A DNA stretch of 64,000 nucleotides. Source: Sciurus carolinensis (taxonomy: Eukaryota; Chordata; Mammalia; Rodentia; Sciuridae). The stretch covers positions 1,067,120 through 1,131,119 of the forward strand of contig NW_025920105.1 in the NCBI RefSeq assembly GCF_902686445.1, in the 5' to 3' direction. Within the stretch, counting starts at the first letter, position 1; every line of letters starts with the position of its first letter. This document shows, one piece after another, positions 11,656 through 41,090 of the stretch. Both the position numbers and the translations under genes were made by a program. The notes below the pieces were generated by a model. It was not told where the DNA came from, did not search any database, and saw only the letters and a program-made list of their open reading frames with translations.

Positions 11656-11739
11656 ATGAAAGAGGGAATGCAGGTCTTGGTTCCACTATTATTGGAGCAT
11701 TTTACTTATTACTGAAAATAGACCAAAATTAACCTTTTT

Positions 11740-11986: not shown

Positions 11987-12059
11987 AGTTGCTCTTTTTT
12001 ATTGGGGCCTCTGTGGAATTGACTGCTTACCATTAAAATGGAAGGTCACCACTCAGGTC

Positions 12060-12870: not shown

Positions 12871-13119
12871 TTAGTTCTCACTCTCTACAGTTCTACAGAG
12901 AATTTCTCATTCTCTACAGTTCTTATAGACAGACTCCCAACATTCAATGTTCCTTTATCTCTAATAACCTTTACAGGAAAGACTTATGTCTTTGCTGCAG
13001 TTGTTGCCAGTTATAATCAAAACTCGTATAATAATAGAATGGTTATATTCTCAATTTTCTGGAAAAATATCTTCCTTATGCTGATATATATGCTCAACTG
13101 TTCTCAGATGATATCAATT

Positions 13120-13849: not shown

Positions 13850-14390
13850 TGATACCGCCGTTTACCAGTGACGAGTTCTGCTTCTTCTAATGTTGAAGAT
13901 TAAGCACTAGAGAAGCACGCCAAGGCAAGCATATTAAGCAGATTTCTTTAAAGGGAATAATACAGACTTCTACCGGCAAGGAGAAGGGGGCCATGGCTGA
14001 TGTTCTAAAAGTCCCAAGAAGTGAGCACACCCTGCATCTTTTATAGGTTAAAGTCTCTTTTGTTCTCCAGTTCTTTCCCCCCTTATCTCTCCTTCCTGCC
14101 TTCGTGACTAGGCCTGGTTTTGCATTAAGTGAGAAGCCATGGGCAGGGGGAGGGCCAAGGTGATTCAGGCAGATAAGGGCCCAGGGGGCATTAATTAGCA
14201 GCTCCTTGTTTGCAGCCCTTGATAAAGGCAGGTAAATTTGGTAATCAATGGGCTCCGGAGATCTTTGACATTCCATTCTTCCAGGGACAGTCTCCAACTT
14301 CCAAAGGCAGATGGCTTCATGGCTTCATTTCCTCGAATTGACCCGATTTCCTATTTCTACACTAACTACCTGTCCTTAATTCTGGCTTCA
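13850..14390 (-). mobile_element. 3' LTR of provirus A
   Basis: The boundaries are tgatacc at the left and ggcttca at the right, so the minus-strand LTR runs TGAAGCC to GGTATCA. A TATA-like ctataaaag lies on the minus strand at 14,038-14,046. The polypurine tract aaaggggagaa is the reverse complement of 14,391-14,401, directly upstream in sense orientation. It matches 20,767-21,305 almost throughout. The 136-codon minus-strand frame across it is not a viral gene. Confidence 0.93.
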
Positions 14391-17300
14391 TTCTCCCCTT
14401 TAGCTATAGGAACTCCTAACTGCTTTAAGGAAAAGGGGGCGTCAGTCATTCTGGCTGCTTTGAAGCTGAAAGGGGGCAGTGAGGCGCAAAGCAGTTTGGA
14501 GTTCCTTTTTTAAAAATCAGGTCAATCGAGGGGTCCAAGGTAGAAGTCTGGTTGGGGAATAGCAGGTTGTAAAGTCATCTGGGGGTGGGTGCTTCTATGA
14601 TAGAAGAACAAAAAGACATGAGTTCTGAAATGAGATTAGTACAAAGTAAATGTTGCAGCATCTGGAAATTGCCACTGAGTATCATGAAAATGACAGAAGT
14701 CAATCTCTCACCAGGAGGTGGAAGAACTGAGAAATTGTTCCCATAACTAGGCCTAGCAAAGGCTGGAAAGGACAAGGCCTTTATTTGGGAACTTTAACAT
14801 TGTCCAGGTTATCAGGAATGTAAACACAACATTTAACTCTTAATGTCATAGATGTCCCCAGAAAATATAGTTAAGCTACTTAATGTCATTTGATTCTTGT
14901 AAAATATCCCTTTATTGGTATAACCTGTGTTAGAGATCTCTATACTTCCATTACTTAGGGCTAGATAATCATACGAGCAAACATAGATTAAGTCTACCTG
15001 TGTAGCTTAGGAAGGTCTGCAGACCTTAAACTGACTAAAAACTTCTGGCAGTTTCTCTTGAGAGTTTTCAGGCACATTTGCTGAAGAATCTTTTATTTGT
15101 AGCTTCCAGTCTTTATTCTAGTGGGCTAATACAAGTGTACATCTTAAGTTACATTTAACTATTATTTCTTTTAAATGCCCAAGAATGGCTATATTTTGGT
15201 TTTAACTGTTTTGCTGGGTGTCTAAGATCAAGCTGGTCAAATTGACCTGGTTCCTGTCTTGTTAAAGAGTCAGCTGAGTTCCCACAGGGGCCACTTGTAG
15301 AGAACTTAAGAGCAGCTTCTTAGCTCCACCAGTGCTATTGGTTAGGTAGGGTCTCCTTGATGAGGTGACTTCCTTTGGAAGTATAAAGGGATGTCTCCCT
15401 TTTTCCATGACCCTCCTTTGCAGCAGATGCACTGAGTGATTTTTCATCCTCTAGTCTCAACAATCTCCTTGATCAGGAGGCTGTGCGACCCAGAGTTGCA
15501 GCACTCCTTAGAGAAGTCCTCTTATTCCCTGGGTTCAGGCTGACTGAGGGCAAAAGATCCAAATACTGGTCTATCTTGCCTTCTGTATTTAATTCCAATC
15601 TCTAAGTTTGATCTTAGTCATCCAGCAAGCCAGTCTCGCCAGTCATAAAGTAAGAGTACTGGGCTTTAAATTCAATGTCCATTAACTTTGCAGTTATTTA
15701 CCCTTTTATCTAGCTGGAGTCTGCATTAATACTGGAAGTTACCACTATCTGTTAGGTGATGGCTTATTATCACAAGTTACCTAGGTTGTGTGTTCTTGAA
15801 GCACCTACTTCTGCAAAACATTAACAGGTAACAATTTTACAAAATGAAATTAGCAAGAGTAAAAATATATTCAGCTTGTATAATAGCTATCTTGAATTTT
15901 GACTGAGAACCACATTATATTCCCTATTTGAGATCATATAACTTTAAATAAGCTGAAGTCTGACTTATTTTGGAGTCACTCTAACATGCAGTAAGGTAAG
16001 AGCCTTATCTCAGGTAAGGCGTGGCTCTTTACAGATCTTAAGTGTTCTTATTCTGATGTTGATTTTTGCTTCTTCCTTAAATATCATTAAGTAGTTTACA
16101 TATACTGTTTCCTGAGTCTAAGCTTAAAATTACCATTACAGACAAGTTTAACCTGGAGAATAGCAGCTTGATAAATTCCCTGCTTTAAAACTTGTATACC
16201 TGAAAAATATGAACACATTTAATATACAACTAGTGACCACTTCACAATTACCTTGACGCTTTTTATATAAACTTTATAATTAACACAATTTAACATTGTA
16301 TCTAAAACATGAATCAAAGAAAGGCTGAGAGAGCTTTTAACTTTCCTTTTGTGTGTCAAAGTGGCAAAATATTTTCATGTTTCACAAAATTAACCTTTAA
16401 ACAAGTCAGGCTCTAATGTTTAGAAATACATCTACATTTGAAATTCTTTATCTCAGTGTAAAAAGTAACAAATTTTACATATACCCTATTGATAACAGGT
16501 CCTATAATAGAACATTAAATGATAGAAATTAATCCCCAATAAAATTTACTCTTTATAAGCTTAAAATTACCATTACAGACAAGTTTAACCTGGAGAATAG
16601 CAGCTTGATAAATTCCCTGCTTTAAAACTTGTATACCTGAAAAATATGAACACATTTAATATACAACTTGTGACCACTTCACAATTACCTTGACGCTTTT
16701 TTCTTACCAAATTTAGTTTAAGAAAAATGTAGACTCTGTAACACAGTACAATACTCTAACAGTTGTTTAACCATAATTGTATACACCCCAATTTTTAAGA
16801 CTAATTGTTCTAAAGAATAAAACTTAATAGACAGAAAGTTGAGTAAATTAGTGTTTCTAAGAAATCCTTGCCATTTTACCATATAGATTAAACTTTGGTT
16901 TATATCAGAACATTAGTATTTCACCTTAGGAAAAACCTTAAATAGCTTTAGCTGTCTCACATACATACAACCAACTTAGTTACATGCAAACTTGTTGAAA
17001 CTTGCCCTTTACATACACAGACTTTCTTAGCACTTACTTAGACCCTCATGTATTTCATCACACAAGCACTTTCTTACCCAGAAACATTTCCTTTTTCCTT
17101 TTACTAAATATATTTCCATACCCAGAACCTTTTATTTTCTCTTTCCTATTCATTGACCCCTTTTTGTTCACATTCTGAAACAACTCTTATGAAATTTCTG
17201 AATTTAGATAAATTACTCTATTTTAATAAGATTGAATATTTTGCTGTTTATAGTACTCTAATTGAAACACAGTTGAAACTTTTGGGACACTTTGTATATA

Positions 17301-18002
17301 GAGTTGCACTTGTTAGGACATAACTCCTAGTAACCTTGTTTTTAGGTTAGTGATGACACAAAGCAAGTTTAAACCCTTTTATTTACTAACCTATAAAAAC
17401 ACCAATAATGTTTAAGTATGATACCCCATGGAATTTAAAGAGTTAAGAGTACTTGAAGTTATTTAACAATTAGCATTTTAACTTTGAAAATTAATCAGAT
17501 GTCTCTACAAACACATTTGAGTAATCCCATACATGTTAACTCTAATTCACTTATTCTGTAAAAACCAAGAAATCAGACAAGTGTCCTGAACAGTATTTGC
17601 TGTCTCTTTCCTGTTGAAGAAAAGTCTTAGAAACAATTGATATTAGACATTTTATTAACATCAATATTTTATTAGCTTAACCACCTAGAGATTTGCGAGT
17701 TATTTTCAAAGACATTTTACTTTCATTAGTTTACCCAATTTGAATTGAACCTTTAAATCACGTGAATTAAAAGTATTTGGATCCATTTTTAAATTTTAAT
17801 TTTAGGAGCGCTCAGTTTTGATACAGACAACACCAGACAGCACGACATACAAATAACACAAAATCAAAGGCCTTGTAACTTTATAGGTGAATCTCCATTG
17901 CAATGTAACAGATGTTCAAAAACTCTAGTTGAATAAAAAGTAGAATTGATCAAAAAAATCATGAGCTCAAAAAAAACATAATTAAAAAAAAACAAGAGTC
18001 CT
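14391..18002 (-). other. Non-coding AT-rich body of provirus A
   Basis: This occupies the place where the rest of pol and env would be, yet no frame exceeds about 66 codons and no retroviral motif is visible. It aligns with 33,831-37,296 in provirus B over nearly its full length with scattered substitutions and short gaps. A 66-codon minus-strand frame (14,575-14,775) and a 61-codon one (15,262-15,447) have counterparts in B, but the differences change amino acids about as often as chance would, so they do not look selected. Origin unknown: captured host sequence or an ancient retroviral 3' region. Confidence 0.75.
16119..16701. repeat. Direct duplication of about 145 bp inside provirus A body
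   Basis: The stretch 16,119-16,264 recurs at 16,556-16,701 with only one or two differences by eye (for example actagtgacc against acttgtgacc). Provirus B has a single copy, at about 35,918-36,062, matching the second position. The first A copy is therefore an extra insertion, best explained by template switching during reverse transcription. Confidence 0.85.
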
Positions 18003-18479
18003 GGAAAAATGATACGGTCGTTAATTACTTTAGTAAAGCACCATAAAATTCACTTTTGCTGGAGTTTAGGTAAGGCTCTTTTTTACCTTTTTTTCCTTGG
18101 GTTTGAGACCGGTCTCCTACTGAGCCTTTAGGCTTCCTATTTACATTTCAATGTAAGCCTTGACTGAGATCTGGAAGGATCTAACAGGTTTTAACAGAAA
18201 CTTTGTGCTTAGGGTATTTTAGTCATTTCATTAGGACAGGTTGGATGTCAAAGAAAATTATGAGACCTTATTTTCCATTTCTTTTGAGAATGAAGCTACT
18301 TTGCTAAGTTCCTCACTGAGATATGCCATTGGTTATTGAGTTGCCTATGGCTGCCTATCCAGGATTTATTTTCCCCTTTTGTGACAAACAGGTTAAATTT
18401 TGCTTCATAGGTAAGCTGAGGACAGGAGCTTGAAGTAAGGCCCCTTCCTGGGGCAGAATATTGTCCTATGGTGACTATT

Positions 18480-18990
18480 TCCTGTAGTTGAACCTGTTGA
18501 TGACATAATTAAGCTTTATTTTTTGAGATCTTATAATTCCTATTAGCTAAGAAGTTTAGGAGTTCTGCAATGGCCTTTTGATATTCCTCCTGGGTGGAGA
18601 CACATAAAGGATGTCATTTACTTACTGGAGAACAATCACAGATGTTTTATCTCTGAATTTTGTTAAGTCCTTAGCTAAGGTTTGTCCGGAACAGGTGAGG
18701 GCCATCTAAATCCTGAGGCAATACTGTCTAGGTTAGTTGAGATACAGTATCTGGTTCCTCAAAGGCAAACAAATTGCTATTCAGAGTCTAGCATAAACAG
18801 GAAAAGCCATCTTTTAAATCTAACAGTAAACCAAGCAGCAGTTGGAATCCAAGATAAAAGTGTATGAATTAAGAACTACAGGGTGGGGGAAATTACTGCT
18901 TCATTATTCTAAGGTCTTGGACTAGACAGTTTTCTTTTTAACTCCTAAATGGGCAAATTGCATGGGCTATTGCAAGGCATTAAAAGTTTC
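18480..18990 (-). pseudogene. Gammaretrovirus-like RT remnant (provirus A)
   Basis: On the minus strand, pieces of a class I RT appear in order: a 'PCN...' N-terminal segment near 18,970, an 'IPTAAWFTVRFKRWLF' segment near 18,810, then 'TLAKDLTKFRDK' and 'STQEEYQKAIAELLNFLAN' running to about 18,535. The position of the catalytic Asp-Asp reads 'VND' after a stop codon, so the active site is destroyed. Gag-like sequence lies immediately upstream, so nucleocapsid, protease and the RT start are deleted. Confidence 0.75.
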
Positions 18991-18994
18991 TATC

Positions 18995-19520
18995 AGTTTG
19001 AATGATCTTTAATAAGTCCTTTTTCTTGCCTATATGTTCCCTTTTCTTTCCTTTGATGTCTATTAAAAATGGAAGATGCAAGCTGGAGAAGATCATCTGA
19101 GGATTGATCAGGGCCACGTGCCAATTTTGAAATTTCCTCTAAATATTTGGGACTGACTAAATGATAAATTTATACTTTAAAAGTAGGTGGCCCTTTATGG
19201 ATTCAGGATTCAGAGTGGTGTGCTTTCTTATTGCTTTCCTAAGTCTCTCCATGAAAATAGCAGGACTTTCCTGAAGGCTGCATAATAGTTTTTTAAGGCA
19301 TCCTACTCATTATTCGAATCCCAGTTAGGATGGTTTCTGGGAACTGCCTGTGCTCTAGATGGCTAATAGCATAATTTTCCAGGTGAAGTCAAATACCTGG
19401 CATAAGTTTTGAAACATCTCAATATTCTCAATATTTATTAGGATCCTCCAAAAGCCTCCTTAAATTTTTGTCTATCTTAAGTTGGGAGGGTTCCCTCAAT
19501 TTTCCTCCCTTAGTGGGCGA
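18995..19520 (-). pseudogene. Gag capsid-like remnant (provirus A)
   Basis: The minus strand at about 19,140-19,270 reads 'FMERLRKAIRKHTTLNPE' followed by a charged helix-rich stretch to about 19,000. Its position and pattern fit the capsid C-terminal region of a gammaretroviral gag. It is joined almost directly to RT sequence. Several stops are present. I base this on pattern and position only. Confidence 0.55.
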
Positions 19521-20744
19521 TTCCTCAAGACTTTCTCCTCTCATGGTAGAGATTATTGCTGTCAAGCATGGTAACATATGAAAGGCACTTTTCTTGATCA
19601 TTTGCAATTTAGCAGTATGCAGGCTAGTGGTGAACCTGGCAATACTGTTGAGAGAGAAGCTCCCTTCTGAGTTAGAAGTATTAGGGACGTCTCCCTAACT
19701 GAGCTTCCTTAGGGTCCAGAAAAACCCGTCTCTCACCACCTGGCTTTGCCAAAGTTATTTCTGGCCTTCTTCAGCAAAGTGCTAGGGTCCTAGTTTGCCC
19801 TGTGCTAGAGACCCTGGGAGGATTCAGACTTAAGGGCATTACTGCTTTCCTCCCTGCCACTATAAACTCCTAATTATGAAAAACGATGACAAAAGTAAAA
19901 AGTGTGCCTTTTACCTATCTTCTTGCCCTGTAGACTAAAGGAATCTCCGGAGGGTGAGGGGACATCTATTGGTTGTTAGGCATATAACGCCCTTTGCTTG
20001 GAGGGTCTCATGGGAGGGGTTTTTAAATGCCTCCCTCTTGCAGCTTAAAGAGAACACAGTGAGCACATTTAAGCATGGGAACAGTAATGGGGAGACTCTA
20101 GATAGACTAGTGAAGGCTAACTATGTGAACAAAGGGAACCTGGGCATTTTCATACTAATCATCCCAGGCCTTAATCCTACAGCTTGAATTCCTAATGTCT
20201 GACCGGCAAGGGAAGGGGAGCATCCAGGAGGGAGTGGATGTGCGGGAGTGTTGTGCACTGTATGGCCCATACGGAGGCAAAGGTGATTGGTGCTTTCCCT
20301 CAGTGCCATTGTCTACAGATCAGCCTGGATACCCTTCAGGGCTGTCGGGAGGGGGAGTCTGGAGAAGGAACCTTTGGGGTCCACCCGAGAGTAGCCCGGG
20401 CCGAGAACCCCGCAGTTGCTCCAACCCTTCCTCCACCTCCACGCATCCTGGGCAGATCAGGACTAGGGACACTGTGTACTTGCGGCAATTGCGCTCCGGG
20501 CCTGGACAGAAAAGTAGGAAATGGCTTCAGCAGAGCCCCAACATGCCTGCAGAGCAGGGGATTGGAAACTTGCCTGGGCCAGGAAACCTCTCACCCGAGT
20601 CTTAAGAATGGCGGCTGCACTAACTGCATTTAAGTAGCCGACGGGTGCCCATTTTGCCCTCCAAAAATAAAGAGACAGAAAGAAAGATGCACCTCAAACA
20701 GATGTGGGGTGTGTGGAGAGAGAAGCTTACTTACCTTGGCGTAA
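19521..20744 (-). other. Leader and 5' gag region of provirus A
   Basis: It lies between the primer site and the capsid-like remnant. Next to the primer site the minus strand has a strong splice donor, aggtaagt (plus-strand positions 20,729-20,736). The segment 20,200-20,630 is richer in G+C and CpG than the rest of the element. Plus-strand frames here (20,195-20,633) are antisense to the element and are not considered genes. Confidence 0.6.
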
Positions 20745-20762
20745 ATCTCGCTGGGGCCTCCA
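20745..20762 (-). promoter_or_regulatory. Primer binding site matching tRNA-Thr
   Basis: The minus strand reads tggaggccccagcgagat four bases inside the right LTR. This is complementary to the 3' end, with CCA, of vertebrate tRNA-Thr (UGU), allowing one mismatch at the end. It fixes the element's orientation and identifies the primer class. Confidence 0.85.
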
Positions 20763-20766
20763 AATC

Positions 20767-21305
20767 TGATACCGCCGTTTACCGGTGACGAGTTCTGCTT
20801 CTTCTAATGTTGAAGATTAAGCACTAGAGAAGCACACCAAGGCAAGCATATTAAGCAGGTTTCTTTAAAGGGAATAATACAGACTTCTCCCGGCAGGGAG
20901 AAGGGGGCCATGGCTGATGTTCTAAAAGTCCCAAGAAGTGAGCACACCCTGCATCTTTTATAGGTTAGTCTCTTTTGTTCTCCAGTTCTCTCCCCCCTTA
21001 TCTCTCCTTCCTGCCTTCATGACTAGGCCTGGTTTTGCATTAAGTGAGAAGCCATGGGCAGGGGGAGGGCCAAGGTGATTCAGGCAGATAAGGGCCCAGG
21101 GGGCATTAATTAGCAGCTCCTTGTTTGCAGCCCTTGATAAAGGCAGGTAAATTTGGTAATCAATGGGCTCCGGAGATCTTTGACATTCCATTCTTCCAGG
21201 GACAGTCTCCAACTTCCAAAGGCAGATGGCTTCATGGCTTCATTTCCTCGAATTGACCCGATTTCCTATTTCTACACTAACTACCTGTCCTTAATTCTGG
21301 CTTCA
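20767..21305 (-). mobile_element. 5' LTR of provirus A
   Basis: This is a nearly identical copy of 13,850-14,390. TATA-like ctataaaag lies on the minus strand at 20,955-20,963. It ends at ggcttca before the attg target duplication. Differences from the left copy include gcacaccaag/gcacgccaag, agcaggtttc/agcagatttc and a missing aa near 20,965. Confidence 0.93.
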
Positions 21306-21783
21306 ATTGTACACTCTTTGTTCCCCTAGTAGGAAAACTGTAAACCCTCGAGGTTTACATTCTAATCCTCTTTGGCAGATGGATGTAACTCATTTACCTT
21401 CTTTGCACTTCTATTCCTTTTCACATGTTACCATAGATATCTCCTCAGGCCTTATATGGACCAATGCACATTGTTCAAAGAAGGTCTCAGACTGTATGTC
21501 TCATGTGCTCCTTTGCATTGCTACCATGGATAAACCTCATCATTTAAAACCTCACAATACACCTGCTTATACTTCTAGTGCCCTTGCTCAGTTTTGTAAT
21601 CAAAGGAATATAGTTCTAACCCATAGAATTCCTCACAATCTTACTGGACAGACCTTAGCTGAATGTACATGTCAAATACTTAAAATGTGTCTTTTAAAGC
21701 AAAAAATTCACAATCCAATTTCCAAATTTTATTTGACCTTGGATGAAGAGGACCCTGATTCAAAAAAGAAAGCTCCAATATGA
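21306..21783 (+). pseudogene. Integrase catalytic core remnant of the older provirus
   Basis: The 158-codon frame from 21,307 matches the retroviral integrase core: 'NPLWQMDVTHLP' supplies the first catalytic Asp, 'PHNTPAYTS' covers the second acidic site where His appears to replace Asp, and 'TLAECTC' carries the Glu. It continues the integrase broken at 13,849, as shown by the duplicated attg at both junctions. The frame survives for 477 bases although the enzyme would be inactive. Confidence 0.85.
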
Positions 21784-22425
21784 AAAAGATGTTCAAGAGA
21801 CCCTCTGCCTTTGATTCATCTACTGACTTGGCGGGGGATATAAACAATTTAACAACATCTACTCAACAATTGCTAGTCTACATGTGTTTAGAATATACCC
21901 TGGAAAACTTGATTGCAGCTGTTTGCCAAACTTACCCAAAATTCTATAAATATACTGATGATTACTGTATTATTTCTCTGTTATTGTGTCCCTCTTGAGG
22001 GTGCCTTCATACTTAGCAGAAATTGGTAATTCTTCTGAAATTTGTATCATCAAGCTACTCTTGATAATAGGGCTGCTATGGATTATTTGCTGTTACATCA
22101 TATAGGATGCCAAAATTTTAACAATAAGTGTTTTCAATTTAGCTGATAATAGTAAATCCATTCAAAGGGAATTGGATTATCTTAAAGATATTGTTAAAAA
22201 AGATAGAAGATGATGGTGGTTGAGATTTATTAGACTGATTAACCTCATGGCTGCCAAATTTTACATGGATCAAACAGCTTTTCATTGGAAGATGCTTACT
22301 GATACTTGCCTTATTATGCTGTACTTGTGTTAGCCAATGTTTGCATTCCTTTATCCCTCCACTGTTTTTAAACAGAAGACCAGTCATGTCTATTCAAAAG
22401 GTCATGCACAACAAAAAAGGGGAGT
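21784..22425 (+). pseudogene. 3' region of the older provirus up to the polypurine tract
   Basis: Short frames (21,780-21,998, 72 codons) follow integrase, but I recognise no env domain. It ends in aaaaaaggggagt just before the 3' LTR, the polypurine tract that primes plus-strand synthesis. With only about 640 bases here, env is absent or reduced to its end. Confidence 0.6.
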
Positions 22426-22796
22426 TGTGGGGATTTCAGGTCAATGTACAGAGGAGCAAAAGTCCTTTGAGTTGAGCAAACTCCTTAGGACAAAAGGTGC
22501 TCTGAATGACTTAGAAATGCTCTGCAACTCCTATGTCCTTCAGGCCTGGAGACATTATCTTATTTTAAAATATTTGGTAATAGTGGGCTCTGAGAAGCAA
22601 GTAAGTTATTTAATCTGCACAGTTGCTAATCTAACTGTACTTTGTAACCTAGTGTAACTTGATATGATCTTGGAATAGATAAGACTGGACTGACTTTTCA
22701 ATGAAAACCACTTCTTGCTCTTCACCATCCTGTGTACTTGCCTCTTTATTAATTCTCCCCTTAACCCTTATAGCTGGACTCCAGTTAACCTTTACA
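22426..22796 (+). mobile_element. 3' LTR of the betaretrovirus-like provirus
   Basis: It starts tgtggggatt after the polypurine tract and ends ttaca, 371 bases. It matches the 5' LTR with many substitutions, which indicates an old insertion. Confidence 0.88.
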
Positions 22797-22899
22797 AATA
22801 AGTGTTGGAAATGATATTGCCCAAATTATGTTATTAGATTGTGTGTGCATATGAGATGTACCAATAAAAAAAGTGGAAAAGAAAGAAAAAAAGTAGTCT

Positions 22900-23535
22900 A
22901 ATTAAAAATGTGCAGAAAATTTGAAAAAATATTTATTCAAAGACAATAACTATGGTCAAAAATCACCTGTTACTCATATACTTTGCAGTAGGAAAGACGC
23001 CAAACATGATTAGTCATTAGGGAAATACAAAATAAATCTACCACAGGAAATGACTCCATAATCACTAGGATTGGTATGACTTAAAGAAAAAAAAAGGAGT
23101 ATAAAAAAAGTCACCATATGATCCAGAAATTCTATTTCTGTACATATACAAAAATAAAAACACATTGCACACACATTCAAAACTCACTAAAACTTGAGGA
23201 TGAATAATCATAGCATATTTACAGACAATAGCACCAAAGTGGAAACAAAACAAGTAAACCCACACCACTTAATAAATGGATAAATAAAATTTGGTGTTAT
23301 TTGTAGAAAATAGTATTTAGCCAAAAAAAGTCATGATTCACACTGTGAAATGAAAAACCTTGAAAAAAATCCAATTGTGAAAGAAGCTGGACATAAAGAC
23401 TTCATACTGCATATAATATTGACTTACATAAATGTTCAGAATTGGCAAATCCATACACATGAAACACAAAGTAGCAGATACCAAAGGATGGACCTGGAAG
23501 ATATAACATTTCTCACTGAGGTGATACAAATATTC
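22900..23535 (+). mobile_element. Old L1 3' fragment
   Basis: Between 23,100 and 23,300 the order 'atgatccagaaattctatttctg', 'ccaaagtggaaacaaa' and 'aataaatggataaata' is that of the L1 ORF2 3' end, followed by 3' UTR-like sequence. Frames are destroyed. The PCGF2 pseudogene lies immediately downstream. Confidence 0.7.
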
Positions 23536-23539
23536 TGGA

Positions 23540-26090: not shown

Positions 26091-26620
26091 AGACATTCAT
26101 ACATATATTTTAAAATGTTAAAATTTATGTTATGTGAATCATTCTAATAAATACATAAAATATGTTTCCATAAACAATTAGGGCATGAACTCAAGTCCCT
26201 GGATTGTGCACTCTTAGGATTTGAGCACCAGGGCACAGCCTTCTTTGAGACTTCTACACATTTCATGGTGTATAGAACAACAGAGTTTTCAGGCTGTGCC
26301 TCAACTCAATTACTCCATCTTGAAAGCAAGTCCCCACCTTCATTTGTTACTTAAGTGCTTTCTTTTCTTTCACTCACCTACTTTTTATATAACTGTAGCA
26401 ATTCATCCTTGACAGGATAAAATGTATGCACAGGATTCTATACCAGCAGAAGGAATTTAGCAGTGCCCACCCCAAGATGACTGACTGATTCTCAAAGCCC
26501 TAATGTTTGCACAGGCCAAAAAAAAAAAACCAAAAAAATAAAAAACAAAAAAACACTTTTTGAAACTATGCCCTAAACCAATAGAAGTCTGAGACTAACA
26601 CTGTCCTGCAACAAAATACA
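26091..26620. other. Unassigned AT-rich region
   Basis: No gene is visible. It contains an A-rich tract at 26,518-26,560, possibly the tail of a decayed retroposon. Confidence 0.5.
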
Positions 26621-26935
26621 TGTTGGGAGAAATTCTACTTCTTGGCTGGCAGTAGTGAACATCTAAAGTGTGCAAGAAAGACTTTCAGGGAGGAGCATTC
26701 TTCTTAGGCCACCTAGGAAAGTACACAACTGCCACAAATTGACTCAATGTTACCAAGAGAACCTATATAGGAACCTGGTGGTCTGATCTCCTGTGGCACA
26801 TTGTGATTGGACAAGAAACTTATAAAATGTATACCTGTTCCTGCAATAAATGAGTTTGCAAGCTGCTCGCCACAAACCTGCTTCCATGCAACTCTCAGAG
26901 TCTCTTGACTCTGCGCCACTTACCCCACGTATGAG
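26621..26935 (+). mobile_element. Solo LTR-like element
   Basis: It starts tgttgggaga. It has tataaaatg at about 26,821 followed 25 bases later by aataaatga, an LTR promoter and poly(A) signal pair, then a U5-like pyrimidine-rich end with 'gagtctcttgactctgcgcca' spacing. The right end is uncertain (26,912-26,940) and I see no target duplication. ERVK type is likely. Confidence 0.55.
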
Positions 26936-29112: not shown

Positions 29113-29245
29113 AGGACTGGGTTGTGGCTCAGTGGTAAGGAGCTTGCCTAGCATGTGTGAGGAACTGGGTTCAATTCTCAGCACCACATAAATAAAGGTA
29201 TTGTGTCATCTACATCTAAAACAATACATAAAAAAATTGAAAAGC
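29113..29245 (+). repeat. ID SINE with sciurid-type tail
   Basis: A tRNA-like head (gggttgtggctcagtggtaag ... gggttcaattctcagcacca) is followed by 'cataaataaaggtattgtgtc' and an A-rich end. The same head-plus-tail order recurs at 60,167 and, reversed, at 55,740. Confidence 0.85.
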
Positions 29246-30620
29246 TTTGAAAAGAAGTGAATGTTTTTCCTTTCAAAGGTCCTTATATTGTGATAGGCAA
29301 TAAGAGTATTTGCTATTGATACTCATTATTATTCCACTTCTATCCTCATGAAGTACACTTATTGAAGCTATTTATCTTTGTGAATAGAAGTATTTCCCCC
29401 ATTTAATGATAAAAACAATAAAAAATGGTCTTTTTTGACCAACTGAAAAAAAAAGACATACTACATGGGAGGTAGGACAAGGTCCTTCTGCCAGCAGATA
29501 TTTCATCTGAATAAGAGTTTACCTTCCTCTCTGGCCTTCAGCTTGCCCCTTCCACCCTCATGTGGGGTCACTGTGAATTCTAGTGGTTACTACCCACCAG
29601 ACTTCAGTGCACAATAAGCCATGATAGAGGTGGTCACTGCCCACATGGCTCCAACATTCAACATGCCAAAATCTTCATTATCCCAAGGTCTCTGACCTGT
29701 TCCCACCAACACTGGAATGATGAGTTCCTTGTAAACAATAATAGTGCTAGCTCTCATAGTTATAGTAGAAAACAGTGCTATCATGTTTCTGCAAACACTA
29801 AGCATCCCCAAACTGTAGGATGCCAACTCATCACCTCTATAATGCAGGTGCCATCATCACCTATTTTCTCTTATTGATTAAAACACAGCAAGGAAAGAAA
29901 ATGAGTTTGTACAGTTTTGAAGGGGTGGGGTACAGGGCAGAGCTTAGGAACTCCTGAACTCACAGCCCAAACACTATGGCCAGTATCATCCAAAACACAA
30001 GGCCCTCAAAGATGAAAGTGACTATAGGTGACAGAGGAAGGCAGAAGACAGGGTAGAATGCAGATGGAGAATCTGAGACCAGAAATGACAGACCCATGAG
30101 AAAAATTATTGAGAACCCCATGACAGCATAGGACAAAGACAACTTAGAAGAATGTAGGCTCGAGTGAGCTGTATGCTCACCAGGGATGGTGGGTTGGCTG
30201 TATGGGCAGAAAGGGAGTGTGTGTGTGTGGCCTACCACCAAATGATTACCCAAAACACAAAATATTCTGCACTTTCTGGTGCTTATCACTGTGCCGTCAC
30301 ACCAAGGCTGAACTGCACTCTTCTCATTCCCACTGAAATAGACAAAGCTGAATGTGCAGGAGGTATACATCTGATGTCTGCTGAATGCACAAGTTAGTTT
30401 CAAGTAGCTCATCTTCACCATGGAAAACTTTTGTGGCACTCCTAATTTGATTTGGCTAAACACAAAATTCAAACCTACAGTGTTTAAGCCTCATGTCTTC
30501 ATATTTGGGTGTAGTGAAATGTTGGTCTGCTTCTCTCTCTCAGACTCAGATACACACACACAACTTACTGTTGACTGTTCAATGTATCTTCAGACTTCCA
30601 TGAAGTAACACCTTCAAAGT
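29246..30620 (-). other. Unrecognised region with two minus-strand open frames
   Basis: Minus-strand frames at 29,590-29,826 (78 codons) and 29,960-30,472 (170 codons) are longer than their surroundings would predict. The larger one ends in three hydrophobic segments, including 'LSYAVMGFSIIFLMGLSFLV', which look like membrane helices. Both lie on the same strand 130 bases apart. I do not recognise a family, and no splice structure or promoter can be shown. A decayed retrocopy of a membrane protein, or chance, are both possible. Confidence 0.3.
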
Positions 30621-31998
30621 TCTGTTCTATGTTCAATGCTGTAATTTTTCCTTTCACCAAGTTGTCAGTCAGCAAACTCATTCTTTTTCAAGAGAATAAA
30701 TACACTTTATAGTCCTCTGTTGCCAATACAGACCTGAGAAAAGAAAGCATCATTGACCATCAAGCTCCAACTCCCCATCAACTACAGACAAGACAAGAAA
30801 AGTCCTTGACTTCTCAGTGGCCAAACCTGCATGAACACAAAAATCCACACTTCACAAAGATTTCTTAAAAAACACGCGATCAAGGCAAGGAATAGGGGGG
30901 TCAAAAATTTTCCCAGGGGAACTACTGGCTCAGGTTCTGCTACCAGAAAAGAGATTATTCCTGAAGGAATCATTTCAGAGGATTACATGTATGTATATAA
31001 ATGTATGCTGTAATTTATACACACACACACAGTGTTTGCATTTACATAATTTTAGTAAAAATTAAAAGCTCACATGTAATCTCAGTAATTCATCTTAGGA
31101 GACTGAGGCAGTAAGATTATAGTTACTTTTTTTTATTAATTGCAATTTAAAAGTCAGTGTTAGCCCCAAGAATTCTGTGTCCAAGGCAAAAGGCTGTATA
31201 TACACACCATAGTACCAGCTTTGCCAACAAAATTTAGCTGTTAATCTATTACTATAAGAAAGTTTCTGTCCCCAACACTTGAGACTATCCTCCAGGAGAA
31301 GTTCAGCACAAGATTACTCATTTTAGAGGAATGGTTTTTTCCCTTTAAAATATTAATTAAAATATATCATTTTTGAAAATGAAAAACAAAACCAAAATCA
31401 AGACAAAACAAATCAAAGTGAGCCTTAGAAGCTTAGTGAAGTCCTGAGCAAATTAACAAGTCTCTGTCTTGAAAACATAAAATGGGCTGCAGATGTGGCT
31501 CAGTAATTAATTCCTTATACCAAAATAAATAAATAAGAAGGGGAGAGGGATAAACAAAGATACTGCTCAACAAATGACAGTGTGTGGCATTTATCTGGAC
31601 TTTGATTCAAGCAAACTATATAACCAAAAGGTACAATGATAAGTGAAATGCAAAAAAAATGAAACATTTTTATCCTTTAGAACTACATGTTTAAATTGTC
31701 AAACATGCAATCCCGAAGTAGTGATCACTACTGTACATGGTAATGTACAGTGCCTCACCATGCTTTCATGAATGTTTAAAGGTTTGCTTGATAAAAAATA
31801 AAACAGAAGGATTGGTGCAGGGCAGCCTGGGAAGGATGGCTATTATAGGATCAATCCCAAGTAAAGCAGAAGTGACCATGGTCCAAGTAATAGATGTATA
31901 CTCAGAAGGCCTGGGTCCTTCTCTGGTCCTGTTCTTCCTAGCTGACTCCCCTTGTACTGGAGACACATCCCACATGAAGAAAAAGACTAATAAAAAAT
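30621..31998. other. Unassigned region with short SINE pieces
   Basis: A B1 head fragment lies at about 31,066-31,125 (aatctcagtaattc...gaggcagtaag) and a short ID-like piece at 31,484-31,535. No gene is visible. Confidence 0.5.
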
Positions 31999-32004
31999 AA
32001 AGAG

Positions 32005-32180
32005 GAAACCTGTAATCTCAGTACCTTGGGAGGCTGAGGCAGTATGACCATGAATTCAAAGCCAGTCTCAGCAATGGCAAAGTGCTAAGCAACTCAGTGA
32101 GATCCTGTCTCTAAATCAAATGCAAAATCGGGTTGAGGATGTAGTTCAATTAAATTCCCAGTGCCAAAAAAAAAAAGAAA
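32005..32180 (+). repeat. B1-ID dimer SINE
   Basis: A B1 unit ('tgtaatctcagtaccttgggaggctgaggca', 'gagatcctgtctctaaat') is joined to an ID-like unit ('gttgaggatgtagttcaattaaattcccagtgcc') and an A-run near 32,166. This is the B1-dID arrangement. Confidence 0.85.
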
Positions 32181-32697
32181 AAAAATTTGAGATCAACATT
32201 CATCTCAATTAAAAAGTAAAAAAAAAAAATTTATAAGGATTCAGATTTTAACACAAACTTGTCCTAATTTAATTTATGGAACACTCCACCAAAACAACAG
32301 GACAATTTTTTATTGGTTTCCAGGTTATAAGGAAAAACACTTTCACAACAAAATCTTAGTCTAAAACACAAAACTCTAAGTAAAATTTAAAGGATTCTAA
32401 TTATACAAACTGTATTCTCTGGTCACAAGAGAATACTTTTAGAAAGTACAACCAGAATTTTACTATAGCTCCTAAGAATGTTTAGAATACAGAAATAAGG
32501 AAAGATCACAAACAACTTTAGGCTTACAAATTCAGGAATTTTTATAAAACAGACACATTTCCTAAAAGACAAGAAATATAAAGGCTTATATGAGAAAGAG
32601 ATAACCTAAACAGCCCTGTATCTATAAAAGAATTTGAGTAGGCTGAAATATTTCCATTAAATCTAGACTCAAGTGGGTTTACTGGTGAACTTAACAA

Positions 32698-32787
32698 CTT
32701 TTTTTTTTTATTGGAGTGCAAATTAAACCCAGTGCATGACACACAGGAGGCAAGTGCTGCACCACTTAGCTTCACCACTAGTGGTTT
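32698..32787 (-). repeat. ID SINE, split by provirus B
   Basis: A T-run, then 'ttggagtgcaaattaaacccagtg' and 'ggaggcaagtgctgcaccacttagcttcac', is an antisense ID copy. Provirus B inserts right after it; sequence resumes at 39,546 with the duplicated gttt. Confidence 0.7.
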
Positions 32788-33579
32788 TGAAAGACCCTCC
32801 GTCCCCCTGTCCAAGGAAAGTCACGCGAACACTGGCTGCAAAAGCAAGAGGCAGTTTATTGATAACACAGGCGCCTGCGGGTGCTCAGTAAAACCTCAGC
32901 CGGAGCTTCGGTGAACTGGCACACCGGGCTTTGGGGTACAGGTTTTTTATAGGGTAAAGGGGCAGGTTTCGCGCGCACGGTAAGCAACAGATTTCTTATT
33001 GGTTATTTTGAATCCAGCATTTAGACATTCTTGGAGAAGCCATAAATTTACTTTAACTGGAGAGGGGGATGAAAGATAGAGACACAGGCGGAGACACAGG
33101 CTTCCCCAAATTGCCCGCAGCCCCTCTCTTCCGCACCTGCATAAACACAGGCTTTCCCTAATTGCCCGCAGCACGGGTCGTAAAAAATGGTAAAGAATGT
33201 ATAAACTCAGACTTCTTTCACCTTATCTGTGAAGGCTAGGGGAGCTGACCCGAGAAGGAACCTTGTTAAGGATAGAGCAGGCTCAGAACTTAAGATGCCA
33301 TGCTTCACAAGCCATAATTTTACTTTGCCATTTGCAGTCCTTCGTTATCTCATCCTATTTACTCTGTCCTTGGTCAGGAATCTGGTATCAGAAGTTTTAC
33401 AGGACAGTTTTATAGTTCCTGCTTATCAGCTCCTGTTAGTTCAGACATGCTCTGACTTTCCCAATTATCCTGCCTCTTTCTTAGCTAAATCTTCAGATAA
33501 ATTCCTTTAACATGCCCCGTTAATAATTTTTCTTTTTCTCTTAAAATAGGCCTGAGCTGGTGGGACAGGGGTCTTTTCA
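32788..33579 (-). mobile_element. 3' LTR of provirus B
   Basis: Minus-strand termini are TGAAAAG and TCTTTCA. TATAAAAA lies on the minus strand at 32,943-32,950 and AATAAA at 32,855-32,860, a normal U3-R-U5 layout. CpG content is high and undecayed, in keeping with a recent arrival. The polypurine tract is the complement of 33,580-33,594 (agaaaaaggggggaa). Confidence 0.95.
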
Positions 33580-33694
33580 TTCCCCCCTTTTTCTTTATCA
33601 TGGATAGAATCTTATATCCATTTGTCCATTCCGCCCCGGTTATCAGTTTGCTTAATCATTTGGTACTGTTGAGTAAGGACCATAGTTTGGATTG
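33580..33694 (-). other. Polypurine tract and unique 3' segment of provirus B
   Basis: These 115 bases have no counterpart in provirus A. They begin, next to the LTR, with the G-rich polypurine tract, and connect B's own LTR to the A-type remnant. Confidence 0.7.
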
Positions 33695-33830
33695 TTTAAA
33701 GGGAATAATACAAACTTCTCCCGGCAGGGAGAAGGGGGCCATGGCTGATATTCCAAAAGTCCCAAGAAGTGAGTGCACCCCACATCTTTCACAGGTTAAA
33801 GCCTCCTTTGTTCTTCAGTTCTCTCCCCCC
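33695..33830 (-). mobile_element. Remnant of A-type LTR inside provirus B
   Basis: From tttaaagggaataatac to ttctctccccccc it matches provirus A's LTR (13,944 to about 14,085) closely. It then jumps straight to the sequence that follows the A LTR (14,396 onward), with the C-run as microhomology, so about 310 bases of LTR are deleted. The TATA-like ctataaaag of A reads ctgtgaaag here, so the remnant has lost its core promoter motif. Confidence 0.88.
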
Positions 33831-36800
33831 CTTTAGCTATAGGAGCTCCCAACTGCTTTAAGGAAAAGGGGGCGTCGGTCGTTCTGGCTGCTTCGAAGCT
33901 GAAAGGGGGCAGTGAGGGGCAAGCAGTTTGGAGTTCCTTTTTTAAAAATCGGGTCAATCGAGGGGTCCAAGGTAGAAGTCTGGTTAGGGAAGAGCAGGTT
34001 GTAAAGTCATCTGGGGGTGGGTGCTTCTATGATAGAAGAACAAAAAGACATGAGTACTGAAATGAAATTAGTACAAAGTAAATGTTGCAGCATCTGGAGC
34101 ATACCACTGAGTATCATGAAAATGACAGAAGTCAATTTCTCACCAGGAGGTGGAAGAACTGAGAAATTGTTCCCATAACTAGACCTAGCAAAGGCTGGAA
34201 AGGACAAGGCCTTTATTTGGGAACTTTAACATTGTCCAGGTTATCAGGAATGTAAACACAACATTTAACTCTTAATGTCATAGATATCCCAAAAATATAG
34301 TTAAGCTACTCAATGTCATCTGATTTTGTAAAATATCCCTTTATTGGTATAACCTGTGTTTAGTAGAGAGCTCTATACTTCTGTTACTTAGGGCTAGGTA
34401 ATCATACGAGCAAACATAGGTTAAGTCTACCTGTGTAGCTTAGGAAGATCTGCAGGCCTTAAACTGACTAAAAACTTCTGACTCTGGCAGTTTCTCTTGA
34501 TAGTTATCAGGCACATTTGCTGAAGAATCTTTCTTTCATTTGTAGCTTCCAGTTTTTATTCTAGTGGACTAACACAAGTGTACATCTTAAGTTACATTTA
34601 ACTGTTATTTTTCTTAAATGCCCAAGAATGGTTATATTTTGGTTTTAACTGTTTTGCTGGGTGTCTAACATCAAGTTGGTCAAATTGACCTGGTTCCTGT
34701 CTTGTTAAAGAGTCAGCTGAGTTCCCACAGGGGCCACTTGTAGAGAACTTAAGAGCAGCTTCTTAGCTCCACCAGTGCCATTGGTTAGGCAGGGTCTCCT
34801 TGATGAGGTGACTTCCTTTGGAAGCATTAAGGGGTGTCTCCCTTTTTCCATGACCCTCCTCTGCAGCAGATGCACTGAGTGATTCTCATCCTCTAGTCTC
34901 AACAATCTCCTTGATCAGGAGGTTGTGTGACACAGAGTTGCAAAGCTCCTTAGAGAAGTTCTCTTGTTCGTGGGTTCAGGCTGACTGAGGACAAAAGATC
35001 CAAATACTGGCCTATCTTGCCTTCTGTATTTAATTCCAATCTCTAAGTTTGATCTTAATCATCCAGCAAGCCAGTTTCACCAGTCATAAAGTAAGAGTAC
35101 TGGGCTTTAACTTTAATGTCCATAACTTTACAGTTATTTACCCTTTTATCTAACTGGAGTCTGCATTAGTTCTGGAAGTTACCACTATCTGTTCTGATAT
35201 CTGTTACCACTATCTGTTAGGTGATGGCTTATTATCACAAGTTACCTAGGTTGCGTGTTCTTGAAGCAGCTACTTCTGCAAAACATTATCAGGTAACAGT
35301 TTTACAAAATGAAATTAGCAAGAGTAAAAATATATTCTGCTTGTATAATAGCTATCTTGAATTTTGACTGAGAACCACATTATATTCCCTATTTGAGATC
35401 ATAGTAATTTTACAACAAAAACCAATCTTTTGATTATAACTTTAAATAAGCTGAAGTCTGACTTATTTTGGAGTCACTCTAACATGCAGTAAGGTGGGAG
35501 GCAGAGCCTTATCTCAGGTAAGGCGTGGCTCCTTACAAATCTTAAGTGTTCTAATTCTGATGTTGATCTTTGCTTCTTCCTTAAATATCATTAAGTAGTT
35601 TACATATACTGTTTCCTGAGTCTATACAAACTTTATAATTAACACAATTTAACATTGTATCTAAAACATGAATCAAAGAAAGGCTGAGAGAGCTTTTAAC
35701 TTTCCTTTTGTGTGTCAAAGTGGCAAAATATTTTCATGTTTTACAAAATTAACCTTTAAACAAGTCAGGCTCTAACTTTTATAAATACATTTATATTTGA
35801 AGTTCTTTATCTCAGTGTAAAAAGTAACAAATTTTACACGTACCCCATTGATAGCAGGTCCTATAATAGAACATTAAATGATAGAAATAAATCCCCAATT
35901 AAAATTTACTCTTTATAAGTTTAAGATTACCATTACAGACAAGTTTAATCTGGAGAATAGCAGGTTGATAAATTCCTTGCTTTAAAACTTGTATACCTGA
36001 AAAACACGAACACATTTAATATACAACTAGAAACCATTTCACAATTACCTTGACACTTTTTTCTTACCAAATTTAGTTTTTAAAGAAAAATGTAGACTCT
36101 GTAACACAGTACAATACTCTAACAGTTGTTTAACCATAATTGTATACACCCCAATTTTTAAGACTAATTGTTCTAAAGAATAAAACTTAATAGACACAAA
36201 GTTAAGAGTAAATTAGTGTTTCTAAGAAATCCTTGCCATTTTACCATGTCATTTTACCATGTAGATTAAACTTTGGTTTATATCAGAACATTAGTATTTT
36301 CACCTTAGGAAAAACCTTTAATAGCTTTAGCTGTTTTACATACATACAACCAACTTAGTTACACACAGACTTTCTTAGCACTTACTTAGACCCTCATGTA
36401 TTCCATCACACAGGCACTTTGTTACCCAGAAACATTTTTTTTTATTAAATATATTTTCAAACCCAGAACCTTTTATTTTCTCTTTCCTATTTGTTGACCC
36501 CTTTTTGTTCACGTTCTGAAACAACTCTTATGAAATTTCTGAACTTAGATACTCTAATTGAAACACAGTTGAAACTTTTGGAACCCTTTGTATATAGAAT
36601 TCCACTTGTTAGGACATAACTCTTAATAACCTTGTTTTTAGTTTAGTGATGACACAAAGCAAGTTTAAACCCTTTTATTTACCAACCTATAAAAACACCA
36701 ATAAGGTTTAAGTATGATACCCCATGGAATTTGAGGAGTTAAGAGTACCTGATGTTATTTAACAATGAGCATTTTAATTTTGCAAATTAATCAGATGTCA

Positions 36801-37296
36801 CCAACAAACACATTTGAGTAATCCCATACATGTTAACTCTAATTCACTTATTCTGTAAAAACCAAGAAAGCAGGCAAGTGTCCTGAACAGTATTTGCTGT
36901 CTCTTTCCTGTTGAAGAAAAGTCCTAGGAACAATTGATATTAGACATTTTATTAACATCAATATTTTATTTGCTTGACCACCTAGAGACTTGTGAGTTAT
37001 TTTCAAAGACATTTTACTTTCATTAGTTTACCCAATTTGAATTGAACCCTTTTAAATCACGTGAATAAAAGTATTTGGATCCATTTTAAAAAATTTAATT
37101 TTTATGCGCGCTTATATTTAACACAAAACTAAAGGCCTTGTAATATTCATCTCCATTGCAATGTAGCAGATATTTAAAAATAACTCGAGTTGGATAAAAA
37201 GAACTGATCAAAAATCATTAACCTAGGTATGCAGGATCAAAATTATGAGCTCAAAAATACAGCATTAAAGAAAAACAAAACAAACGAAGAATCCTA
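33831..37296 (-). other. Non-coding body of provirus B, homologous to provirus A
   Basis: It runs parallel to 14,396-18,002 with scattered substitutions and indels; B lacks A's extra 145 bp copy and has a short duplication near 35,195-35,220. No frame longer than about 66 codons is present on the sense strand. Homology ends at 37,294-37,296 within ttattttctag on the minus strand, a polypyrimidine-AG resembling a splice acceptor. Confidence 0.85.
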
Positions 37297-38733
37297 GAAA
37301 ATAAGTTAGTTCTGGGTACCAACCCAGAAGTTTAAAATGGACACTTTTTTTTCTTTTCTTCAGGTTACCCGCCCCTTCCCGCTGAGACTGCTGCAGGCTT
37401 TGGCAAGGCCAGGCAGAGGGGAGGGGGGATTACCCAGGACTTTTTAACCCTTTTTTTCCTGGTTGAGAAATCAGGTTAGGTTTGAATGCAGAAAATAACA
37501 AAACATTATTTCTCACTACTTTTGAGGAATGGAGCTGCTGAGCTCTCTGCCTAGGGGGATTGGAGTAAACAAATCTCTCAGGAACAAGGAGGAGGACTGT
37601 AAAAGTACCCTGCAATGACAGACAGTCACGTAACGTGCTAAATCAAAAATTGGCTAGCTGGTACTTTGTCAATAAAAACAAACAATTTCCAATTATATCA
37701 AGGAGTTGCCCAGGCGCAACACAATGCCCAAATGGGGCCAAGAGTTAACCAGAAGCGACAAGTCGCCAGAATGCAGCACAAAAGCTGCTCAGATGTGAGA
37801 GTCACTCAAATGCGACAGAGTCGCAAAGACCCTTCTTTGGGCCAGCCTACGTTGAAGGTTGGCCATTCAGAGTGCAGAGGGTTACCCACTTCTTCCTTTT
37901 GACCTCGACCGACAAGTTGCCGGCACAGTTCCGGACGTCTTGCCAATGGTCGAGGGTGAGACTCAGGGGGGTTACCATGGATTGCCCCATTTCAGTCTCG
38001 CTGGTAAAAAAAGGAATTTAAGAAACAGGCACAGGACACAAGAAAACACAGACCAGACAACAGATTACAAACGCTGCGCGTCCTCGGCACGGACCGAGGA
38101 AATCAAATGTCGGAGAGTGCAAGCCCCTCTGGCCAAAAACAAGTCCCGACGAATCGAGCACCAAACAAGTCAAAAGCAAAGGGATTCAAATTCAGAACGC
38201 TTTCGGCTTCAGCATGACCTGAAAGTATCCAAAACCAGAGGTATTCAAATTCAAAACGCTTTCGGCACAACCCGAAAGCATTCAAAACCAAAGGTATTCA
38301 AATTCAAAATGCTTTCGGCACAACCCAAAAGCATTCAAAACCAAAGGTATTCAAATTCAAAACGCTTTCGGCACAGCCCGAAAGCATTCAAAAGCAAAGG
38401 GATTCAAATTCAGAACGCTTTCAGCACAAACCAAAAGTATTCAAAACCAAAAGTATTCAAAAGCGAAAGCATTCAAAGGTTTAAACCCCTGGGACGTCTC
38501 CCAGGGTAGCAGGAGAGAAGTCAGAGTCCGTCAACTCCCTCTCAGACTGCCCAAACTACAAATTGGAACACGCGTGCCCCTACAAAGTACAATCGCTGCG
38601 CTTCAGAACGAACAAGACAAAGCAACTACACAAGACAGACAAAGACAGACAATAACCCCCTGCTGGCCAGCTTAACTTACCTCCCAGAGTATTTGGCCGT
38701 TCCTCGGGCAGGGGTTCGGGGTGTCGAAGGGAA
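37297..38733 (-). other. Leader region of provirus B
   Basis: This 1.4 kb between primer site and body has no match in provirus A. It holds the 53-bp tandem array and, near the primer site, a splice donor aggtaagt on the minus strand (38,675-38,682). The 216-codon plus-strand frame at 37,859-38,509 is antisense to the element and stays open because of the repeat's composition. A gag start is not recognisable. Confidence 0.65.
38171..38480 (-). repeat. 53-bp tandem repeat array in provirus B leader
   Basis: Units beginning caaaacc or caaaagc start at 38,171, 38,230, 38,283, 38,336, 38,389 and 38,442. The spacing is 53 bases after the first unit, which is 59. Each contains ggtattcaaattcaaaacgc followed by tttcggcac. 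The period is not a multiple of three, so no conserved protein repeat can be encoded. Confidence 0.92.
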
Positions 38734-38751
38734 ATCTCGGTGGAACCTCCA
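38734..38751 (-). promoter_or_regulatory. Primer binding site matching tRNA-Gln
   Basis: The minus strand reads tggaggttccaccgagat, two bases inside the right LTR. It is exactly complementary to the 3' end of vertebrate tRNA-Gln, CCA included. Confidence 0.9.
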
Positions 38752-38753
38752 AA

Positions 38754-39545
38754 TGAAAGACCCTCCGTCCCCCTGTCCAAGGAAAGTCACGCGAACACTG
38801 GCTGCAAAAGCAAGAGGCAGTTTATTGATAACACAGGCGCCTGCGGGTGCTCAGTAAAACCTCAGCCGGAGCTTCGGTGAACTGGCACACCGGGCTTTGG
38901 GGTACAGGTTTTTTATAGGGTAAAGGGGCAGGTTTCGCGCGCACGGTAAGCAACAGATTTCTTATTGGTTATTTTGAATCCAGCATTTAGACATTCTTGG
39001 AGAAGCCATAAATTTACTTTAACTGGAGAGGGGGATGAAAGATAGAGACACAGGCGGAGACACAGGCTTCCCCAAATTGCCCGCAGCCCCTCTCTTCCGC
39101 ACCTGCATAAACACAGGCTTTCCCTAATTGCCCGCAGCACGGGTCGTAAAAAATGGTAAAGAATGTATAAACTCAGACTTCTTTCACCTTATCTGTGAAG
39201 GCTAGGGGAGCTGACCCGAGAAGGAACCTTGTTAAGGATAGAGCAGGCTCAGAACTTAAGATGCCATGCTTCACAAGCCATAATTTTACTTTGCCATTTG
39301 CAGTCCTTCGTTACCTCATCCTATTTACTCTGTCCTTGGTCAGGAATCTGGTATCAGAAGTTTTACAGGACAGTTTTATAGTTCCTGCTTATCAGCTCCT
39401 GTTAGTTCAGACATGCTCTGACTTTCCCAATTATCCTGCCTCTTTCTTAGCTAAATCTTCAGATAAATTCCTTTAACATGCCCCGTTAATAATTTTTCTT
39501 TTTCTCTTAAAATAGGCCTGAGCTGGTGGGACAGGGGTCTTTTCA
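38754..39545 (-). mobile_element. 5' LTR of provirus B
   Basis: Same length and, apart from one base seen by eye, the same sequence as 32,788-33,579. TATAAAAA lies at 38,909-38,916 and AATAAA at 38,821-38,826 on the minus strand. Transcription would run leftward into the primer site and leader. Confidence 0.95.
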
Positions 39546-40997: not shown

Positions 40998-41090
40998 GGG
41001 GCTGGGGAGATAACTCAGTTGGTAGAGTGCTTGCCTTACAAGCACAAGGCCCTGTGTTCAATCCCCAGCACCGCAAAAAAAAAAAAAAAT
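40998..41090 (+). repeat. ID SINE, well preserved
   Basis: The tRNA-like sequence 'ggggctggggagataactca' to 'ttcaatccccagcaccgc' carries A and B box motifs of an RNA polymerase III promoter and an A-tail of about 14. It is among the least diverged SINEs here. Confidence 0.93.

Follow-up and report, generated by a model that had tools for sequence, protein, structure and literature searches.

How do two endogenous proviruses that differ in their long terminal repeats (LTRs) come to carry nearly the same non-coding interior? The question arises in a 64,000-nucleotide stretch of the Sciurus carolinensis genome (NCBI RefSeq assembly GCF_902686445.1, contig NW_025920105.1, positions 1,067,120 to 1,131,119 of the forward strand; the whole stretch is called the window here), in which provirus A (13850-21305) and provirus B (32788-39545) both lie on the minus strand. 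An earlier note on this DNA had read them as two LTR-flanked proviruses, and the 4-bp target duplications around them (ATTG for A, GTTT for B) bear this out. We think it likely that a gene-free block of the old A family was captured by B and then relayed to two further retroviral frames, C and D, through copackaging and template switching. As part of the same reading, A probably belongs to a large class I family that is old, non-autonomous and equipped with a 3.6-kb non-coding body.

The two interiors align almost throughout, as the earlier note had observed, with 94.5% identity over 3,339 ungapped columns, 31 indels and a Kimura two-parameter distance of 0.057. Past 18010 in A and 37310 in B the match fades to 77% over 201 aligned bases, ending at A 18305 and B 37544; this flank scores 82, and none of 200 shuffles exceeded 71. 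The LTRs of A (541 and 539 bp) align over 539 columns with 7 differences and a single gap (98.3% identity), and those of B (792 bp) show one difference. Because the LTR pairs differ by 7/539 and 1/792, most of the body divergence probably predates these two insertions.

The body was compared with several kinds of known sequence. The 182 columns that differ between A and B are spread evenly over the codon phases (60/62/60), and the idea of a coding relic, judged by codon phase, was set aside; 9 of the 31 indels are multiples of three. Candidate retroviral proteins were searched as open pieces against protein family profiles (E<=2 for body pieces), and none of the 104 pieces from the two copies matched a retroviral family, nor did any of 50 pieces from an older copy (L029, body 85% identical), a weak negative because most of A's pol remnant likewise went undetected: a control on 30 pieces, 29 of them from A gag-pol, returned only Gag_p30 (7e-4) and RVT_1 (0.09). 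The reverse transcriptase (RT)-end piece of A had no PDB match. For a 72-aa piece open in both bodies no homologues were found, and Rfam gave no match in the A body at E<=1. The patterns of the body, LTR A and the B leader are absent from the viral contigs searched, and the body pattern had no match in the prokaryote contigs searched. The description of the shared part as non-coding stands within the limits of this weak test; outside it A has gag and RT remnants, and B a gag start, packaging-signal-like RNA and an env tail.

The combinations in which this body occurs were sought across the whole assembly with four queries, scoring the best 40 candidates for each: the B body (1843 first-look candidates; 40 scored, 98-100% identity), the A body (2277; 96-100%), LTR A (3678) and LTR C (2018; 99-100%). 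These candidate totals are not copy numbers. All 40 B-body matches were typed from their 3' ends; 21 lie in 20 long loci (two in L009), one is the window and 18 are in 1.3-kb stretches. Twenty of the 39 non-window A-body matches were fetched. The genome-wide search with the body and with LTR A, which the earlier note had proposed, found the body in A, B, C and D frames and not with one LTR type only. By 3' end, 30 of the 40 B-body matches are in B, 2 in C and 7 in D, and one (L077) is unreadable. The A, B and C frames are multi-copy.

The body evidently belongs to the A family, because all nine A-type proviruses read across the pol/body site carry it, in each case preceded by a truncated pol; these are window A, L021/L030, L022/L029 and a further 6/6. 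All 20 fetched A-like body ends continue into a full LTR A. Among the 40 scored LTR A matches there are eight same-contig pairs, seven spaced 6.74-6.92 kb, the window included, and one 13.07 kb; the six non-window pairs of normal spacing all have the pol-body joint of window A. The A polypurine tract lies between body and 3' LTR.

Provirus B, by contrast with this uniform family, is composite. A comparison of LTR A with LTR B gave no match better than E=0.6, in keeping with the earlier claim that the LTRs are dissimilar, yet B contains a 138-bp piece that matches LTR A at 88% identity, starting near position 309-314 of that LTR and reaching a joint at about 442; homology of the LTRs exists solely through this piece. 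Body and LTR A have the same order and orientation in A and B. Since the piece is joined to the body on one side and to B's own env tail on the other, B appears to have acquired the 3' part of an A-type element. Where LTR A meets the env tail, an identical 12-mer spans the joint in 35 of the 40 scored B-body matches, among them the seven D copies. Some other B-frame copies keep LTR A 1-448 and others carry a U3 deletion, which is derived, because undeleted copies exist; by eye, its joint shows 6 nt of microhomology (AAGGGG). Base composition shifts at the block edges as well: in window B the observed/expected CpG ratio is 0.51-0.85 in its own LTR, leader and gag and 0.17 in the body, so that a young frame and an old insert are both visible inside B. 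In A the ratio is 0.13 in the body and 0.14 in gag-pol.

The B frame has TG...CA LTR ends and a start of murine leukaemia virus (MLV)-type gag matrix (MA), and the gag MA matches were the only retroviral family matches among window B pieces. There is no complete gag, pol or env; the longest stop-free stretch, 217 aa, is antisense and within repeats. A family search gave no match for the env tail, whose likeness to a gammaretroviral env C-terminus was seen by eye alone, and the B gag piece, tried against viral contigs, had no confirmed match there.

The B chimera has spread as such, because many near-identical copies carry their own 4-bp target duplications. Eight LTR-paired B copies show LTR differences of 0-1.1%, and 4-bp target duplications flank seven of them; in the remaining one two B proviruses stand in tandem (L009:287-6967; 0 of 794 differences between the LTRs compared). 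Further B-frame LTR pairs are 100% identical over 777 columns (L014), 99.8% (L027), 99.3% (L020) and 98.8% (L019). The young pairs point to mobility, which a helper in trans may have provided. Of the 30 B-frame ends, 25 have LTR B (the window and the B end within L021 included; five are cut by the stretch end), and five (L018, L019, L020, L080 and L027) have LTR B subtypes with another U3, sharing only the 3' part (about positions 553/578-792), which points to promoter swapping within the B family. The families also nest: in L022 a B element lies inside an A-type pol, and L021/L030 is an A-type provirus with both LTR A copies, in whose body a B element was apparently inserted, followed by a deletion.

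The primer sites, which we take to be of tRNA-Thr, tRNA-Gln and tRNA-Pro types, modify another part of the earlier account. The window copies do differ (Thr type in A, Gln type in B), but the contrast fails at the family level, where six of six non-window A-type proviruses have a Gln-type site like B and L021 a Gln-like one with one change, making window A the odd copy. All 13 B-frame sites read are Gln type, two with one base changed. The idea that A is a tRNA-Thr family resembling HERV-T, a human endogenous retrovirus (HERV) group, was dropped accordingly. The Gln-type site occurs in two versions, GGTCCC and GGTTCC, both present in the A and B families (L057-L062, L009-L022).

Frame C is found in two of the B-body matches, L024 and L078, with a further, cut C element beside the B element of L012. 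L024 has 492-bp LTRs (7 differences) and the target duplication CTGT, and runs from LTR C through its own leader, B-like sequence, the body, LTR A 1-189 and an env transmembrane (TM) part (TLV_coat, E=2e-41) to LTR C. C is a gammaretrovirus frame and has a tRNA-Pro-type primer site. The B-like sequence starts at about B gag nt 227 and is mostly 95-98% identical in 60-column windows; the gag-side match to B is 87.6% over 622 columns with gaps. A 618-bp insertion in the body of B copies is shared by both C elements of the long loci (L024 and the second element in L012), which supports transfer from B to C; in all, 14 elements at 13 of the 20 long loci carry it, those C elements included. Among the 40 scored LTR C matches there are eight pairs, spaced 6.25-6.59 kb, and all eight have the body end and LTR A 1-168 within the 281 bases read of each. 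A repeat at 57573-58151 of the window is 74.6% similar to the 618-bp insertion (L013:6224-6841) and is a dispersed repeat; a further relative lies beside L043.

Frame D accounts for seven of the B-body matches (L026, L028, L070, L071, L074, L076, L079). L026 has a gag start of class II-like character (Gag_p10, E=6e-6) ahead of the block and a GP41-type env TM (E=1e-9) after it; among solved structures, this env piece best matches chains of HIV-1 gp41 (2e-6) and one of ERVK (3e-6). On the Gag_p10 and GP41-type family matches we call D class II-like, though it is the least certain frame. All seven D ends run on into a common sequence, 87-100% alike (for L028 this covers just 320 bases), and have the joint of B. 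Two more D 5' ends match L026 in part only, and neither an LTR nor a primer site belonging to D was found in the stretches read. L076 and L079, identical over 853 bp, could be segmental duplicates.

A 39-row tree built from the body end and the adjoining LTR A piece groups 13 rows of the B frame with two of the D frame at support 92/87 (96/91 without L027), and the two C rows stand apart (100/100). A longer-body tree (23 rows) has mostly weak support; in it window A, whose branch is long, pairs with L021, and the two C rows pair firmly.

The joints, the order of parts, the multi-copy state, the target duplications and the young LTR pairs are directly observed. From them a sequence of events can be proposed, in which A-type RNA would have been copackaged with gammaretrovirus B. 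Reverse transcriptase may have switched from the B gag region into the end of A pol and later from the A 3' LTR, at about position 442, into the B env tail. The chimera would have retained the cis signals of B (LTR, primer site, packaging-signal-like RNA and polypurine tract), thereby allowing B machinery to copy it with a helper in trans. Later, the B-type chimera may have handed the block to gammaretrovirus C, with switches near B gag nt 227 and at about LTR A position 170-189, and also to the class II-like frame D. Several observations weigh against this proposal. No parental B, C or D virus lacking the block was seen among the copies examined, for which reason we infer the switches from the joints. 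The LTR A piece is more diverged between A and B (16/136) than the body (182/3,339), so the block may have a mixed history, and the 5' edge in B is just 77-81% like the five A-type copies compared, the donor subtype thus not having been found. L027 has other joints at either end of the block and may have arisen separately; the L018 LTR pair, at 98.0%, means that not all B-frame pairs are very young. In the 39-row tree two changes instead of one are required when B and C are given a joint label, and the main A group leaves out two of the A rows. The C env part has 0 CpG against 14.1 expected, so that the CpG contrast fails there. Finally, C was read from one whole element (L024) and one cut (L012), and D from one element read on both sides (L026).

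What the body is bears on how its movement should be understood. It may be what decay has left of RNase H, integrase and env in the A virus, in which case an A-type 3' half moved and no special cargo did, an explanation to which we give serious weight, if rather less than even: the body lies between the RT remnant and the polypurine tract, has about the length of those three regions, going by gammaretroviral gene sizes, and is CpG-poor like A gag/pol. The profile searches of both bodies and of L029, weak as they are, speak on the other side, for the same method does recover Gag_p30 and, weakly, RVT_1 from A gag-pol pieces, and G+C is 0.34 against 0.43. That the body instead holds a cis-acting RNA function (export, stability or packaging) selected in every frame is unlikely. 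Its retention in A, B, C and D, and its lower divergence compared with the LTR A piece, would fit such a role, but it tolerates the 618-bp insertion and many indels, the Rfam search of the A body was negative, and a hairpin beside the polypurine tract, considered as an export element, was rejected because it does not exceed shuffles (z -0.82 in A, +1.25 in B). Unlikelier still is a retroviral super-parasite, a gene-free RNA segment with a packaging, export or recombination advantage of its own that hops between class I and class II frames and each time founds an amplified family; the body is most likely a passenger.

The block could also have entered B as DNA, through integration of an A provirus into a B provirus followed by deletion and gene conversion. 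Nesting of the two families, as in L022 and L021/L030, lends this some plausibility, yet a single partial LTR A with one common joint in 35/40 matches, and the lack of another LTR A on the 5' edge in any B element of the 20 long loci, make it improbable, and capture by template switching remains the reading we prefer. The earlier note's picture of a cargo passed between LTR systems is therefore kept in part: one body does occur in several multi-copy frames, but it is not free cargo between two unrelated systems, because it is an A-family body that moved with LTR A pieces and because A and B share a primer type at the family level.

Table 1. Features of proviruses A and B, with window positions and the basis of each call (TSD, target-site duplication).
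Feature	Position	Strand	Basis
Provirus A 5' LTR (LTR A, 539 bp)	20767..21305	-	98.3% to 13850-14390; TSD ATTG
Provirus A primer site	20745..20762	-	read from sequence
A, decayed gag and RT-end remnants	18306..19990	-	Gag_p30 E=7e-4, RVT_1 E=0.09, both under curated cut-offs; rest by eye
Shared non-coding body, A copy	14393..18010	-	pairwise alignment; includes 146-bp duplication 16119-16264
Provirus A 3' LTR	13850..14390	-	LTR match; TSD ATTG
Provirus B 5' LTR (LTR B, 792 bp)	38754..39545	-	791/792 to 3' LTR; TSD GTTT
Provirus B primer site	38734..38751	-	read from sequence
B, Gammaretrovirus core encapsidation signal-like RNA	38485..38588	-	RF00374, E=1e-4, 41.9 bits, short of the gathering score (93)
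B leader, 53-bp tandem repeats	38170..38461	-	repeat analysis
B, broken gag start (MA)	37850..38017	-	MLV p15 chain 1mn8 E=1.9e-12; Gag_MA in 2/91 pieces, best E=4.4e-14
B, diverged A-type pol-end sequence (5' edge of captured block)	37311..37544	-	77-81% to five A-type copies
Shared non-coding body, B copy	33826..37310	-	pairwise alignment
B, LTR A piece (about positions 309-442), 308 bp of U3 deleted	33688..33825	-	alignment to LTR A; some other B-frame copies undeleted
B, own env tail and polypurine tract	33580..33687	-	translation; env C-terminus likeness by eye
Provirus B 3' LTR	32788..33579	-	LTR match; TSD GTTT

The 146-bp duplication in the A body (16119-16264 / 16556-16701, 99.3%), which is absent from B, looks like a reverse transcription jump. 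Provirus A is itself nested in an older class II-like element (8879-22797), flanked by an LTR-like pair (8879-9239 / 22443-22797, 82% identical) and containing an integrase-like piece at 21295-21783, read by eye. Ribosomal DNA fragments that resemble pseudogene stretches derived from rDNA lie elsewhere in the window, at 57-2818 and 50585-51183 (minus); those at the left end are of 5.8S and 18S, and the one near 51 kb is of 28S. Short interspersed elements (SINEs) of a tRNA-derived, ID-like type lie at 40999-41089, 52490-52580 and 59820-59909, one of which ARAGORN calls tRNA-Met; SINEs of the ID type would fit a rodent host of the squirrel family.

The mechanism has close precedents in recKoRV and Harlequin; the relay over several frames is the new part. 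In recKoRV the ends are koala retrovirus (KoRV) and the inside is PhER. Its published description is of a recent gammaretrovirus that underwent recombination with an older, degraded element, and an intact virus is encoded by none of its parts (PMC10536682). B is alike in having the outer ends of one retrovirus and the inside of an older defective element, and in having amplified as a chimera (7/8 paired copies with their own duplications; one joint in 35/40); the difference is that the same inside is here found in two further frames besides B, one of them class II-like, that the order can be traced and that a piece of LTR was captured too. Harlequin is described as a reiterated HERV mosaic with internal foreign LTR pieces, for which copackaging and polymerase jumps are invoked (PMC4724089); its parts are named HERV groups, whereas the body here is without a recognised gene and recurs in several frames. 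Two mouse elements are set out in a third source (PMC6466679): ETn, an LTR element without coding capacity mobilised by its coding relative MusD, and VL30, a class I element that is non-autonomous and is packaged together with MLV. The class II helper MusD is also the source from which ETn derives, unlike the present case of one insert in several unrelated frames; B resembles VL30 by description only, having gammaretroviral cis signals and no complete gene. The prairie dog retrovirus GPDRV, considered as a relative of the B frame, was rejected, being described as a betaretrovirus (PMC7354474). The element family may be undescribed, as the earlier note suggested: in the literature searched, squirrels and marmots included, no title or abstract start among the matches listed describes this body or these frames, subscription journals lying mostly outside its coverage.

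The locus and its relatives show, within a single genome, how natural recombination among retroviruses proceeded in ordered steps, with a donor, a first recipient, second recipients, readable joints and young copies. Gene-free cargo, on this evidence, can move between unrelated retroviral frames, and the series can be used to test how often unrelated viruses copackage and rescue non-coding retroviral RNA and whether a gene-free body confers an advantage. It also bears on the classification of mosaic endogenous retroviruses, in which LTR, primer site and interior have separate histories.

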